From assembly GCA_947447895.1 (NCBI GenBank), contig CANFLM010000012.1, forward strand, positions 1 to 49,169: a DNA stretch of 49,169 nucleotides. The letters are read 5' to 3'. The translations under genes and the position numbers were made by a program. Shown here piece by piece: positions 5,844 to 9,845 of the stretch (position 1 is its first letter; every line of letters starts with the position of its first letter). The stretch comes from Hyphomicrobiales bacterium. GTDB taxonomy: Bacteria; Pseudomonadota; Alphaproteobacteria; Rhizobiales; Beijerinckiaceae. The notes under the pieces are model-generated. The model did not search any database. It had not been told where the DNA came from and saw nothing but the letters and a program-made list of their open reading frames with translations.

Positions 5844-6625
5844 TGCTTGTCGACAGCCATTGCCATCTCGATTTTCCCGAACTGGAAGAAGATCGTGCCG
5901 GTGTGCTCGCCCGCGCCAAAGCGGCGGGTGTGACCAGCATGGTCACCATTTCCACCCGTGTTGCCAAATTCGCCACCTATGCGGCTATTGCCGAGAGTGA
6001 TCCTGATATCTGGTGCACGGTCGGCACCCATCCGCTCGGCGTGTTTGAAGAACCGGATGTGCCGCTTGAGCGATTGCTTGATCTGTCGTCGCATCCAAAA
6101 TGCGTCGGGATCGGCGAGGCGGGGCTGGATTATCATTATGACACCGCCCCCCGCGATGTGGCGGAACGTGTGTTCCGCACCCATATCGAAGCCGCACGGT
6201 TGACCAAACTGCCATTGGTGATCCATGCGCGCGATTGCGATGACGATATGATCCGCATTTTGTCGGATGAAATGGGGAAGGGGGCATTTCCGGCCCTGCT
6301 CCATTGTTTCTCGTCCGGTCCCAGGCTTGCCGAGATCGGGGTCGAACTGGGCTTGAGCGTTTCGTTTTCGGGGATTGTCACCTTCAAGAAATCCGATGAC
6401 ATCCGCGCCATAGCAAAACGGGTTCCGCTGGACCGTTTGCTGGTGGAAACCGATGCGCCGTTTCTGGCCCCGCAAAAGCACCGTGGCAAACGCAACGAGC
6501 CCTCATTCGTAACCGAGACAGCCGCCATGCTGGCCGATGTGCACGGTCTGACCTACGAGCAGATGGCCGCCATCACCACGGATAATTTTTTCTCCTTGTT
6601 TTCAAAGGCTGCGCGGCCGCAATGA
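5843..6625 (+). CDS. TatD family metal-dependent hydrolase (YcfH type)
   Basis: This 260-residue protein has a predicted TIM-barrel amidohydrolase fold. The N-terminal metal-binding HxH is in [13 protein letters not shown]. Further metal-ligand segments are GEAGLDYHYD (about residue 92-101), VIHARDCDDD and LLHCFSSGP (about 130-155), and the catalytic Asp is in LLVETDAPFLAPQ (about 205). TatD proteins are 3'-5' DNA/RNA exonucleases, but this housekeeping paralogue has no firmly assigned physiological role. It overlaps metG by one base upstream and the MBL gene by 4 nt (ATGA) downstream. A metG-tatD-MBL cluster is widespread in bacteria. Confidence 0.93.
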   Translation: MLVDSHCHLDFPELEEDRAGVLARAKAAGVTSMVTISTRVAKFATYAAIAESDPDIWCTVGTHPLGVFEEPDVPLERLLDLSSHPKCVGIGEAGLDYHYDTAPRDVAERVFRTHIEAARLTKLPLVIHARDCDDDMIRILSDEMGKGAFPALLHCFSSGPRLAEIGVELGLSVSFSGIVTFKKSDDIRAIAKRVPLDRLLVETDAPFLAPQKHRGKRNEPSFVTETAAMLADVHGLTYEQMAAITTDNFFSLFSKAARPQ

Positions 6626-7416
6626 CCGGAACAATCACCATTCTTGGTTGTGGATCTTCGGGTGGTGTGCCCAGGCTGGGCTTTGGTTGGGGCTCCTGCG
6701 ACCCGCAAGAGCTAAAAAATCGCCGCAGACGTTGTTCTATTCTGATCGATCGCGTTATTGACAACAAGAAAACCACAGCAATTATAGATACTTCTCCGGA
6801 TTTGCGAGAGCAACTTCTGAGCACGAATACAACACGTCTTGATGCTGTTTTGTTCACCCATGACCATGCCGACCATGTCCATGGCATTGACGATGTGCGC
6901 CCCTACGCACTGCTGCAACGCCAACGCCTGCCGGTTTACATGGATAAAGTAACAGCCAAAGGCATCAAAAAGCGCTTTTCCTATGTGTTCGAAACTGTGG
7001 AAGGCAGTGATTATCCCCCGATTGTCGAAGAATTTCCGATCGAGATCGGTCGTGAGATCGAGATTACAGGCGAGGGTGGATCGATCAATTTTCTGCCGTT
7101 TCTTCTCCAACATGGGCCTGTTCCGGCTTTGGGTTTTCGTATCAATAACGTGGCCTACACGCCTGATGTGAATGCCATTCCGGAACATAGCTTGCAGGTC
7201 TTGCACAATCTCGATGTCTGGATTGTCGACGCCTTGCGGATACCGCCACACCCGACCCATTTCTGTTTGGATGAAACACTGCACTGGATCGAACAACTAA
7301 AACCCAATCGCGCCGTGCTGACCAACATGCACACCGACATGGATTACGCGACGCTATGCAAACAATTGCCCGACCATATCCGTCCTGCCTATGACGGGAT
7401 GAAGATCGGGTTTTGA
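6622..7416 (+). CDS. PhnP-like metallo-beta-lactamase-fold phosphodiesterase
   Basis: This 264-residue protein is related to PhnP and the tRNase Z superfamily. The N-terminus ILGCGSSGGVPRLG is typical of the group. The zinc signature HxHxDH is FTHDHADHVHGID at about residues 77-89. A further conserved region is LQHGPVPALGFRI at about 155-167, and a late His is in NMHTDMDYATL. Relatives hydrolyse cyclic phosphate or phosphodiester bonds, but no phn genes are nearby, so the substrate is open. It overlaps tatD by 4 nt. Bases around 6700-6850 are more AT-rich than the flanks and use rarer codons. It is the last gene before the accessory patch. Confidence 0.85.
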   Translation: MTGTITILGCGSSGGVPRLGFGWGSCDPQELKNRRRRCSILIDRVIDNKKTTAIIDTSPDLREQLLSTNTTRLDAVLFTHDHADHVHGIDDVRPYALLQRQRLPVYMDKVTAKGIKKRFSYVFETVEGSDYPPIVEEFPIEIGREIEITGEGGSINFLPFLLQHGPVPALGFRINNVAYTPDVNAIPEHSLQVLHNLDVWIVDALRIPPHPTHFCLDETLHWIEQLKPNRAVLTNMHTDMDYATLCKQLPDHIRPAYDGMKIGF

Positions 7417-7635
7417 AGATTGAGGGACCCAGTCTATCTGTTGGCACCACATATCCAGAACATATTAAAGGCTCTTGATCTTGGGGCTTATAAATTAAGT
7501 TCCATAATATCTCTTATGCGACAACTGTGATGCAAAAAGCGACTTAAGTCTCTGATATTTCATAATAGCCTCTCCTGTTGATCAATGTATATGCTTCAAA
7601 CGGTCAGAAATTCGTAGCCCCGAGATGTGGGCGCG
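7417..7635. other. Intergenic boundary between core operon and accessory patch
   Basis: These 219 bp are noticeably more AT-rich than the flanks. I see no open frame, tRNA, att-like repeat or U-tailed hairpin here. It separates the + strand core operon from the convergent minus-strand orphan genes. Confidence 0.5.
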
Positions 7636-7648
7636 CTAACGCGCGCCC
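7629..7648. other. GC-rich perfect hairpin spanning an orphan gene's stop codon
   Basis: The arms GGGCGCGC (7629-7636) and GCGCGCCC (7641-7648) pair perfectly over 8 bp with a 4-nt loop TAAC. The minus-strand stop codon of the 138-aa gene (7636-7638) overlaps the loop. No U-tract follows on either strand, so it is not a classical intrinsic terminator. It could stabilise the mRNA 3' end or assist Rho-dependent termination. Confidence 0.55.
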
Positions 7649-8052
7649 TTGTAGTCGACACCTCCCTTGAGTTCGCGGTTGACAGTCTGGCAGACGCAGC
7701 GCGCCCCGAGAACCTTGCCCAGGACAGGCCCGGCCTCTTCGGCAATAGCGATCAGCTCCGCTCCCAGCTGCAGCAACAAATAGCCGGACGCACTGATCTG
7801 GTCGACATTGATCAGCGGCACCGTCAACCTGGCGCAGTTGCGGCCGCCCAGAAACCGGGAGTGATAATCGTCGGCCTGCATGTGGCGACGCAACACGACC
7901 AGTGACGGATCATCTTTCACGGCTTTGGCAAAAGCCCTGCCGTTTTTGAACTTGGCCTTGGCCTGTGACGGCGTCAGCCTGTTGGTATTCACGATTTTTG
8001 ACGGATCCCATTCGATCGTCGTCAATGTCCCTGTGTCGGTGATATTTTTCAT
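7636..8052 (-). CDS. Hypothetical protein (138 aa), accessory
   Basis: I do not recognise this protein. It starts with ATG, with TAGGAC about 7 nt upstream, so translation is credible. The sequence is soluble-looking: a polar N-terminal half with KFKNGRAFAKAVKDD and RRHMQADDYHSRFLG, a hydrophobic stretch (SGYLLLQLGAELIAIAEEAG, about residues 90-109), and a Cys-containing tail (GARCVCQTVNRE). There is no signal peptide and no known catalytic motif that I can see. It lies 8 nt after the stop of the upstream small membrane protein, and its ribosome-binding site overlaps that stop, so the two are probably co-translated. It is the distal gene of a patch headed by a truncated recombinase, so it is a likely cargo gene. 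Its stop codon is next to a strong hairpin. Confidence 0.6.
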   Translation of the reverse strand: MKNITDTGTLTTIEWDPSKIVNTNRLTPSQAKAKFKNGRAFAKAVKDDPSLVVLRRHMQADDYHSRFLGGRNCARLTVPLINVDQISASGYLLLQLGAELIAIAEEAGPVLGKVLGARCVCQTVNRELKGGVDYKGAR

Positions 8053-8060
8053 TGTGTGTC

Positions 8061-8324
8061 CTATTTGAAAATGAGCGGGCCATACATGAGGACGTTAACA
8101 ACAACGAACCACCCCAAAAAAACACAACAGGCAATTCTTGGACTACGGCCGGTCGTGGCTTCTGGATCCCGGCCTGCATCAATCTCTTTTAGATACCACA
8201 CGGCAGACGACTTATCAGCACAGTTGCGATGAGTACCTGAAGGTGTGATCGCAAAGATAAGATCTCCGACGATGGTAATACAGCCGATGCTTTTCCCCTT
8301 GTAATCAATTGGTTCAATATGCAT
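8061..8324 (-). CDS. Hypothetical small membrane protein (87 aa), accessory
   Basis: I do not recognise this protein. The start is placed at the ATG at 8324, which has GGAG 8 nt upstream; a TTG two codons earlier is also in frame. The N-terminal two thirds look soluble (IDYKGKSIGCITIVGDLIFAI). The C-terminus carries one strong transmembrane segment at about residues 67-84 (CCVFLGWFVVVNVLMYGPL), so it would be a tail-anchored inner-membrane protein. It lies 15 nt after the recombinase remnant and 8 nt before the 138-aa gene, all on the minus strand. A functional pairing with the 138-aa gene is suggested only by coupling. Confidence 0.55.
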   Translation of the reverse strand: MHIEPIDYKGKSIGCITIVGDLIFAITPSGTHRNCADKSSAVWYLKEIDAGRDPEATTGRSPRIACCVFLGWFVVVNVLMYGPLIFK

Positions 8325-8339
8325 TTTCAAATCTCCATC

Positions 8340-8807
8340 TTAAAAACGGGTTTCATAATTCCTTACAGTTGACGCATGCCACGCACCACCACGCGATGTC
8401 GGGACGCCCCGCGCATTGAGCGCCTCGGCGATTTCCCGATAGGTTGTCAGGCCCCGGCGGCGCAGATCCGCGATCAGGGGGCCGACATTGTCAGCCATCC
8501 TATCAGCGCCAGCAGCCGACACAATCCCCGCTGCCTTCGCACCGCGTTCAGGTGCAGGGCTGCCAAGCACCCCGCCCCGCGCCTGGACCCGTGCCAGCGC
8601 CGCCTTGGTGCGCTCGGAGATCAGCTCGCGCTCGTTCTCGGCCACCGCCGCCAGAATGTGGATCGTCATCTTGTTGGCGTGGGGGTTGTCGACGCAGACA
8701 AACGGCGTGCCTTCGTGCATGAGCTTGGCAACGAAATAGGCGTTGCGATACAGCCGGTCGAGCTTAGCGACGACCAAGGTCGCCTTGTGCTTCTTGCAGG
8801 CCGCCAA
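8340..8807 (-). pseudogene. Serine recombinase (resolvase family), 5' truncated
   Basis: About 155 residues match the middle and end of a serine site-specific recombinase. They show VVAKLDRLYRNAYFVAKLM, then DNPHANKMTIHILAAVAENERELISERTKAAL (the E-helix region), a linker, and a C-terminal recombinase/HTH segment (YREIAEALNARGVPTSRGGAW). The N-terminal ~70 residues, with the YxRVS motif and the catalytic serine, are missing. Reading upstream in the same frame gives unrelated residues and then a stop at about 8901-8903. The break coincides with a 19-bp tandem repeat, pointing to a deletion or rearrangement. Without the catalytic serine it should be inactive. Its presence shows that this patch was once mobile or beside a mobile element. 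Confidence 0.85.
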
Positions 8808-8841
8808 TACACCTCTTGTGCACCAATACCCCTCTTGTGGA
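8804..8841. repeat. 19-bp tandem direct repeat (2 copies)
   Basis: Copy 1 is CCAATACACCTCTTGTGCA (8804-8822). Copy 2 is CCAATACCCCTCTTGTGGA (8823-8841). They are adjacent and differ at 2 of 19 positions. The first copy begins at the last codon that still resembles a serine recombinase, so the repeat marks the truncation junction of that gene. Confidence 0.85.
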
Positions 8842-8924
8842 ATGCCCCACTTGCCAGACTGAAGCCGCTTTGATGTTTTGCAAGTGCATGCTTTAACTGA
8901 TCACACTTATGCGTTGGAGGCACG

Positions 8925-9845
8925 ATGATGCAGGAACACCAGGCTAAGCATCTGAAGGATTCCGATCAGGATGATCATGCGTTCGCAACGCCACTAAAGG
9001 CCTCACAGTCCAGCATGCCATCTTCACGCTCCGTTGATGGCCTGATCGACATTATGGCGGCTCTGCGGACGCCTGTGACGGGTTGCGCCTGGGATCTGGC
9101 ACAGGACTTTAAAACGATAGCGCCCTACACCCTCGAGGAAGCCTATGAGGTGGTTGACGCGATCGATCGGGGTGACCCGGAAGATCTGTGTGACGAATTG
9201 GGAGATTTGCTGCTCCAGGTGGTCTTTCATGCCCGTATGGCCGAAGAACAGGGCCTGTTTTCCTTTGCCGATGTTTGCGAGGCCATCACAAAAAAGATGA
9301 TCCGTCGCCACCCGCATGTGTTCGGGGATGAGCGTGACCTGCCCCCCGATCAGGTCAAAGCCCTCTGGAGGCAGATAAAGGCGCAAGAAAAGGCCGAGCG
9401 AGCAGTTCGTCGGGCTGCCAGCGGACAAGCAGAGCCCGTCCTCTCCCTGCTTGACGGCGTGCCGCAAGCCCTGCCCGCGTTGACGCGCGCTGAAAAACTG
9501 CAAACGCTTGCCGGATCAGTCGGTTTTGATTGGGATGATGTCCAGCTTGTCTTGGCCAAATGCGACGAGGAACTGGCCGAAGTGCGCGAGGCCGTGGAAT
9601 CGGGCGATCATGCTGCCATCAAGGACGAGATCGGTGATCTGCTGTTTGTCGTGGTCAATATTGCGCGCCACATGAAGATTGATCCCGAGGACGCCTTGAG
9701 ACAAGGAAATCATAAATTTTACAATCGATTCAATTTTATAGAAAAGAGTTTGAAAGTAAAAAATAAAAAATGGTCCGACACCGATCTGGCCGAAATGGAA
9801 GATTTGTGGGTCAAGGCCAAGCTCGTCTTGGGGCAATCCCGCTAG
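8925..9845 (+). CDS. mazG: Nucleoside triphosphate pyrophosphohydrolase MazG
   Basis: The enzyme hydrolyses (d)NTPs to NMP plus PPi, a house-cleaning and stress role. It has 306 residues, longer than E. coli MazG (263), mostly because of an N-terminal extension of about 45 polar residues. Two MazG repeats are visible. The first has the metal-binding EEAYEVVDAI followed by DELGDLLLQVVFHARM (about residues 72-105). The second has CDEELAEVREAV and DEIGDLLFVVVNIARH (about 207-245). GGAGG lies 4 nt before the first ATG (8925) and 7 nt before a second ATG (8928); either could be used. The 3' part (about 9708-9772) is strikingly A/T-rich (KSLKVKNKKW). The gene is convergent with hflX, with a 7-bp gap. 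Confidence 0.92.
   Translation: MMQEHQAKHLKDSDQDDHAFATPLKASQSSMPSSRSVDGLIDIMAALRTPVTGCAWDLAQDFKTIAPYTLEEAYEVVDAIDRGDPEDLCDELGDLLLQVVFHARMAEEQGLFSFADVCEAITKKMIRRHPHVFGDERDLPPDQVKALWRQIKAQEKAERAVRRAASGQAEPVLSLLDGVPQALPALTRAEKLQTLAGSVGFDWDDVQLVLAKCDEELAEVREAVESGDHAAIKDEIGDLLFVVVNIARHMKIDPEDALRQGNHKFYNRFNFIEKSLKVKNKKWSDTDLAEMEDLWVKAKLVLGQSR

Follow-up and report, generated by a model that had tools for sequence, protein, structure and literature searches.

A gene cluster beside the chromosomal dif site of a Hyphomicrobiales bacterium as the probable scar of a dif-integrated prophage

Several mobile elements, known as IMEX, exploit the Xer recombination system, and CTXphi, VGJphi, TLCphi and the gonococcal genomic island are among those treated in a review of the subject (PMC5357621). 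As far as the accessible part of that review goes, its examples are vibriophages, filamentous where their type is named, and genomic islands (PMC5357621). Integration at dif motifs by means of the host XerCD has also been proposed for Jorvik and Ebor, which belong to Rhodobacter capsulatus, and for NO16-like vibriophages (PMC10589892, PMC11980548, PMC9966536). The available portions of the first two reports describe alphaproteobacterial phages at dif motifs that are either membrane-containing or ssDNA phages (PMC10589892, PMC11980548), and that of the third describes non-tailed vibriophages at dif (PMC9966536). In mycobacteriophages such as BPs, immunity is integration-dependent and turns, according to the abstracted text, on the location of the attachment site (PMC4557955), and podoviral pelagiphages that integrate into host genomes are the topic of a paper cited in PMC8024684, as its available text indicates. 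Among the matches listed in the open-licence literature, as far as titles and abstract openings tell, no tailed phage integrated at dif was found, and one may exist in print.

The locus described here lies in a stretch of 49,169 bp from a Hyphomicrobiales bacterium (hereafter, the window), and it resembles the IMEX in two respects. Two viral contigs from IMG/VR (L002 and L005) carry a dif-like attP, and integration at the host dif is found in a prophage of another genome of the same family (G299) and, apparently, at the junction in the window. In attP the XerC arm and the centre are conserved and the XerD arm has diverged, a combination that the review text consulted describes for TLCphi and the gonococcal island (PMC5357621). 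It differs from the IMEX in that the element is a 35-kb tailed phage that carries, in G299, a XerC-like recombinase gene of its own. It also differs from Jorvik, Ebor and the NO16-like phages, which comprise, in the accessible descriptions, a microvirus and dsDNA phages that contain a membrane or lack a tail; for Jorvik no predicted integrase gene is described.

Three minus-strand frames occupy the space between the MBL-fold gene, present in 60 of 60 family genomes, and mazG (Table 1), at the positions of the original prediction, and they are more than chance open reading frames, since IMG/VR phage contigs contain a relative of each of them, arranged in the order of the window. The recombinase had been described as decapitated, and it is: the Pfam family Resolvase is matched from profile position 57 onward, together with part of Recombinase, and alignment with intact relatives reveals that about 70 N-terminal residues are missing, including the serine of YxRVS, which we take to be the catalytic residue. 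The intact recombinase with its catalytic serine that is expected of a mobile serine-recombinase cassette was not found in the window. The membrane protein (mem) has one strong hydrophobic stretch, at residues 64-82, with a mean Kyte-Doolittle value of 2.15. Its gene is separated by 8 nt from that of the 138-residue protein (p138), and the ribosome-binding sequence TAGGA overlaps the mem stop codon, just as had been noted. A GC-rich palindrome without a T-run, seen by eye over the p138 stop codon (about 7628-7650), was considered as a terminator. The original prediction did not include the dif site, the 22-codon stump of an open reading frame or a tandem duplication of period 19 near the end of its interval, at 8841.

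Table 1. Features of the locus between the MBL-fold gene and mazG, in window coordinates
Feature	Position	Strand	Remarks
Host MBL-fold gene	6622-7416	+	Pfam Lactamase_B_2; left neighbour of dif
Stump of the ORF that would span attP	7495-7563	-	22 codons, MKYQRLKSLFASQLSHKRYYGT; AGGAGAGG just upstream; homologous spacer up to the att core
dif site, putative prophage attR	7497-7524	-	Single match in the window
XerD-type arm of dif	7497-7507		Host side, towards the MBL-fold gene
Centre of dif	7508-7513		
XerC-type arm of dif	7514-7524		Phage side
Phage-derived spacer between p138 and att	7525-7635	-	Aligns with the p137-attP spacer of L002
p138, phage protein	7636-8052	-	138 aa; last complete gene before attP
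mem, single-pass membrane protein	8061-8324	-	87 aa from ATG; 89 from TTG at 8330
3' remnant of serine recombinase	8340-8807	-	About residues 71-225 of the intact form; Pfam Resolvase
Phage/host deletion junction	8806-8843	.	Tandem duplication, period 19
Host DNA upstream of mazG	8825-8924	+	Aligns colinearly with the empty sites of G385 and G357
Host mazG	8925-9845	+	Pfam MazG; right-hand neighbour

The DNA 3' of the MBL-fold gene carries in many relatives a common motif, TTCCATAATNNNNNTTATGCGA, made of two 11-bp arms around 6 bp, to which the arms in Table 1 were assigned by analogy with the 11-6-11 dif given in the review (PMC5357621). The motif was not seen in the stretch inspected 3' of this gene at five loci (L014, L015, L016, L020 and L028), and a sixth, L017, ended too soon. 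With up to 3 mismatches allowed, the draft genome to which the window belongs (2.54 Mb) has one match, which is perfect, and at this threshold the control pattern read backward also finds one match. At up to 1 mismatch, the pattern occurs in 115 of 119 family genomes and the backward-read control in 0 of 119; one copy is present in 85 of the genomes, more than one in 30 and none in 4. The distance between the MBL-fold gene and dif, taken in 49 of the 60 family genomes that bear the gene, is at most 300 bp in 30 and at most 5 kb in 48, with the site always on the 3' side; G347, at 25 kb, is the one genome beyond 5 kb. The 11 genomes left out comprise G322 and G337, with no dif match, G321, G330, G300 and G324, with the site on another contig, G311, G319 and G348, with positions missing, and G309 and G344, where both lie on the same contig about 126 kb apart; a dif within 5 kb was therefore not seen or not measurable in 12 of 60. 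The switch in sequence polarity was tested in one relative, G312, which is a single contig. There, the KOPS octamer GGGNAGGG, whose motif is that of E. coli, and its complement occur 59:8 over 200 kb on the left of the site and 6:72 over 200 kb on its right. Of 10 bins on each side, 9 on the left have a negative GC skew and 8 on the right a positive one. The GC skew across the window gives no clear switch at 7.5 kb. The genome of the window encodes two Xer-type recombinases. The KOPS and skew switch in G312 and the mostly single site per genome identify the motif at 7497-7524 as the chromosomal dif.

Variation at this place is also seen elsewhere in the family. In genus g133 (L029/G342 and L030/G306), dif is inverted relative to the MBL-fold gene, and a gene that reads by eye like a phosphopantetheinyl transferase stands between the latter and mazG. 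The large genomes of g136 (G309, G344, G374 and G398) have 2-3 dif-like sites on different contigs and mostly with different centres, the pattern that one dif per replicon would produce.

Two contigs of IMG/VR, retrieved as L002 and as L003, L004 and L005, carry an intact recombinase of 225 residues, mem (88 residues) and a 137-residue form of p138 (p137) in the order of the window. Between the window and L002/L003, identity is 84% for the recombinase (to L002), 47% for mem and 66% for p138. These contigs are fragments, and the order recombinase, mem, p137, dif-like attP, YqaJ is seen in one piece in L002 and L005, with attP cores at 1893-1914 and from 6798, respectively, each with 3 mismatches to the host pattern. 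The YqaJ exonuclease (PF09588) follows attP; L003-L005 end within it, and L002 continues beyond it with genes that read by eye like lysis genes. An exact dif-like site is carried by 22 other IMG/VR contigs (L043-L064). One of these, L046, encodes a weakly similar capsid protein (26%) and another, L064, a YqaJ homologue (33%), so that more dif-using tailed phages may be present.

At the same place, G299, which belongs to another genus of the family, has a p138 homologue, also found by local tblastn, and the recombinase directly 3' of the MBL-fold gene. They stand at one end of a prophage that lies between two dif-like sites, C36:63503 (3 mismatches) and 98830 (0 mismatches), about 35.3 kb apart, and that is apparently complete in the sense of being complete at both ends. 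The site at 63503 (attL') has a good XerC arm and a diverged XerD arm. From the mazG side, the prophage presents attL', the YqaJ exonuclease (60% identical to the L002 copy), a XerC-like recombinase, major head and tail genes, endolysin and primase/helicase, and it ends with an intact small serine recombinase, an 87-residue membrane protein, the p138 homologue and a perfect dif next to the MBL-fold gene. Relative to the unintegrated order of L002 and L005, the prophage is circularly permuted at the dif-like site, which is what integration at this point would produce. The p138 copies of G299 and the window share 41% identity; the membrane protein, with 18-20% identity to mem, is a positional counterpart only. 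The phage tyrosine recombinase (304 residues) scores best against XerC, at 268 bits where the equivalog cut-off is 335, and the G299 genome has two further Xer-type genes. No homologue of this XerC-like gene was found in IMG/VR viral contigs, and a search of phage genomes gave 24 records, all below 60% identity and at 28-35% among the matches listed. A third XerC-like gene was seen in a genome of the G299 genus with an empty dif (G336:C19:376488-377378), and it could belong to another element. The G299 prophage matches head and tail families of PHROGs, and its capsid protein is 69% identical to the major capsid protein of the Methylophilales phage MEP301. Homology of virion proteins to MEP301 was found for the G299 prophage only, and the window retains no virion gene; the phage of the window was most likely of the same short-tailed, MEP301-like type, to judge from G299.

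Comparison of the junction between the MBL-fold gene and mazG in relatives, which had been suggested together with the original prediction, reveals an empty site in two genomes of the same genus as the window and the 35.3-kb prophage in G299. The two same-genus genomes, G385 and G357, have the order MBL, dif, mazG; in a third, G321, mazG has dif next to it and the MBL-fold gene is on another contig. G357 (L066) has by eye two extra small genes between the MBL-fold gene and dif, and this pair reads by eye like a HigB/RelE-type toxin and a HigA-type antitoxin. Alignment with L065 and L066 shows that the mazG flank of the window matches G385 and G357 clearly from about 8850 and plausibly from about 8825, and on the other side the match to G385 takes in dif and the adjoining bases in the direction of the MBL-fold gene. 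The 111-bp spacer between p138 and dif, compared with that of the L002 phage with dif left out, scores 46, where shuffled sequences average 16 and 0 of 300 reach that score, and its comparison with the G299 spacer gives no detectable similarity (score 17, with 29% of shuffles as high). As the spacer is homologous to phage and the mazG flank to host, host DNA yields to phage DNA inside the dif core. A later deletion fused the recombinase at about codon 71 to host DNA beside mazG, and the joint carries a tandem duplication (8806-8820 and 8825-8839, period 19 bp). The sequence CTTATGCG at 8904-8911 was considered as a second att site and rejected, because in the empty-site alignment this is the host mazG leader. 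The place and boundaries of the insertion, the permutation, the empty site and the deletion are shown by the aligned sequences, and integration in the window is read from one end, the second att site being gone.

The att core of L002 and L005 lies within an open reading frame of 64 codons (L002 1851-2045) for a predicted membrane protein with a hydrophobic stretch of 2.59, in which the core encodes SHKTY. In G299 this frame is split over the two prophage ends: its start and Shine-Dalgarno sequence are found at attR (L027 14810), and SHKTY with a hydrophobic C-terminus, with a stretch of 2.61, at the attL' end (L038 18504). In the window, the start, AGGAGAGG and 22 codons are left, running into host DNA and a stop. 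The C-termini of L002 and G299, compared without the SHKTY that att encodes, have a modest similarity (12 of 1000 shuffles were as high). Among the 22 IMG/VR contigs with a dif-like site, frames of at least 40 residues cross the site in 13, and their strongest hydrophobic stretch is 1.62 versus 2.6 in L002 and G299; a location of attP within such a frame is therefore documented for the L002 and G299 lineages only. Integration would, in these phages, cut the small membrane-protein frame that spans attP. In BPs-type phages attP lies within the repressor gene, which is altered by integration. The interrupted frame is here a small single-pass membrane protein instead.

It had been proposed to look for co-occurrence of the two small genes elsewhere, and they do occur together in both IMG/VR contigs; in G299 the homology is clear for p138, and the membrane protein corresponds in position only. 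The two contigs were the same with three p138 queries and with a mem query. Apart from them, p138 is rare: matches were obtained in 1 of 297 genomes of the order (its own), 2 of 397 of the family (its own and G299) and 1 of 385 of the class (its own), samples that overlap and whose counts are not additive. No relatives of p138 were found in the genome contig collection or among phages, nor, with the window copy as query, among plasmids. None of the four other genomes of the genus that were searched contains it, and two of these have the empty site. Neither mem nor p138 has a usable match in Pfam, PHROGs or NCBIfam, the best for p138 being a PHROG of unknown function (E 0.33), and PADLOC matched neither. 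When the relatives were compared with Pfam, only DUF1391 appeared, for the G299 membrane protein, with an E value of 0.027 that misses the cut-off. No relative of p138 was found among PDB sequences, and an AlphaFold model from a three-sequence alignment has a mean pLDDT of 54, too poor for a fold search.

The intact frames and ribosome-binding sites of the two genes had been taken as a sign of possible selection, an argument that loses its force because the dead recombinase fragment is equally intact and is not clearly evolving faster, so that intactness is uninformative. Against L002, dN/dS is 0.142/1.619 for the recombinase and 0.271/1.645 for p138, with synonymous sites near saturation, and the dS of mem is not computable; these low ratios mostly reflect history in the phage. 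When G299 serves as the outgroup, the changes found solely in the window and solely in L002 number, respectively, 8 and 6 in the recombinase (155 sites), 6 and 12 in p138 (112 sites) and 5 and 3 in mem (72 sites, on a weak alignment). The dead fragment thus has no clear excess of amino-acid changes, and either the scar is young or the test is too weak.

Taken together, these comparisons make it highly probable (about 0.93) that the window genes are the scar of a prophage integrated at dif. The locus had been regarded as a decaying mobile cassette, and that it is debris of a mobile element is supported; the part of the claim that gives way is the recombinase-driven cassette, in favour of one end of a prophage in dif. 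A self-contained cassette that carried mem and p138, owed its mobility to the small serine recombinase and had the dif region as a chance target would agree with the recombinase standing upstream of both genes in the window, in L002/L003 and in G299. This explanation is very improbable, as the genes of L002/L003 and G299 stand in phage gene order, the G299 boundaries are dif-like sites and MEP301 has the recombinase (33%) with neither gene annotated between it and YqaJ. Selection in the host for mem and p138 as a functional pair, serving as effector and immunity, superinfection exclusion or defence, would fit their intact frames and ribosome-binding sites and their conservation in two IMG/VR phage contigs; genes beside att are, moreover, often expressed in lysogeny. 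It is nevertheless improbable, given the equally intact and not clearly accelerated recombinase fragment, the lack of any match to defence or toxin-antitoxin models and the presence of p138 in 2 of 397 family genomes and in 0 of 4 other genomes of the genus. The effector/immunity module suggested earlier, or a role in defence, likewise drew no support from PADLOC, Pfam or NCBIfam, nor p138 from PDB sequences.

Another role, for p138 and perhaps mem, would be that of a phage factor for integration and excision at dif, comparable to an Xer-activating or directionality factor. In every copy seen p138 is the last complete gene before att, its distance to the 28-bp site being 111 bp in the window, 114 bp in L002 and 138 bp in G299; nothing lies between the recombinase and exonuclease genes of MEP301, and the attP is of the type of TLCphi, which according to the review text consulted is processed without FtsK (PMC5357621). 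Against this, p138 has no fold or family assignment (pLDDT 54, no PDB sequence relative), the G299 phage brings its own XerC-like enzyme, and position alone does not establish function; such a role is possible, if unlikely. In this genome, the two orphan genes are probably ordinary remnants, and mem and p138 of the window are most likely passengers of the dif-integrated prophage.

How the phage lineage may have come by these genes is suggested by MEP301, in which a gap of 3 bp separates the small serine recombinase gene (33%) from that of YqaJ (33%) and neither mem nor p138 is annotated in it. This neighbourhood, like the capsid protein, relates MEP301 to the phages described here, and the 3-bp gap without mem and p138 sets it apart. 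The core CGCATAA-N6-TTATG was not found at up to 2 mismatches in the whole MEP301 record, scanned in two overlapping pieces; the pattern is alphaproteobacterial, and the dif of the MEP301 host may differ. The same search finds a chance match in L002 and in L005 besides attP. The gene order is a firmer point than the missing core. The 3-bp gap makes mem, p138 and attP look like one insertion, an added lysogeny module, or like one loss in MEP301. On a speculative and rather unlikely view, mem, p138 and the attP-spanning frame would form a compact dif-lysogeny module, which on its insertion between the recombinase and exonuclease genes made a MEP301-like podovirus an Xer-using temperate phage, with p138 controlling Xer recombination at dif and integration switching the phage by cutting the frame.

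The current model for the locus proposes that a temperate phage integrated into the host dif between the MBL-fold gene and mazG. Its integration would have been carried out by Xer recombinases, the host XerC and XerD and possibly a phage XerC-like enzyme, rather than by the small serine recombinase, which was probably not the integrase. Integration would have split the small membrane-protein frame across attP, and a later deletion, from the interior of the recombinase to just upstream of mazG, removed the rest of the phage together with the other att site. The genes mem and p138 may belong to a lysogeny or dif module gained by the phage lineage between its recombinase and exonuclease genes. 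Xer catalysis, the split frame as a switch and any role of mem or p138 are inferred.

As far as the accessible literature goes, the elements so far described as users of dif are filamentous phages, islands and some phages that are non-tailed or have ssDNA. The case presented here is a tailed lineage of podovirus type that uses dif in Alphaproteobacteria, with one member bearing its own XerC-like enzyme, and an attP inside a gene that integration would split. It offers a route, open to testing, by which a phage genome of this kind may become temperate, and it would account for small orphan phage genes next to dif.
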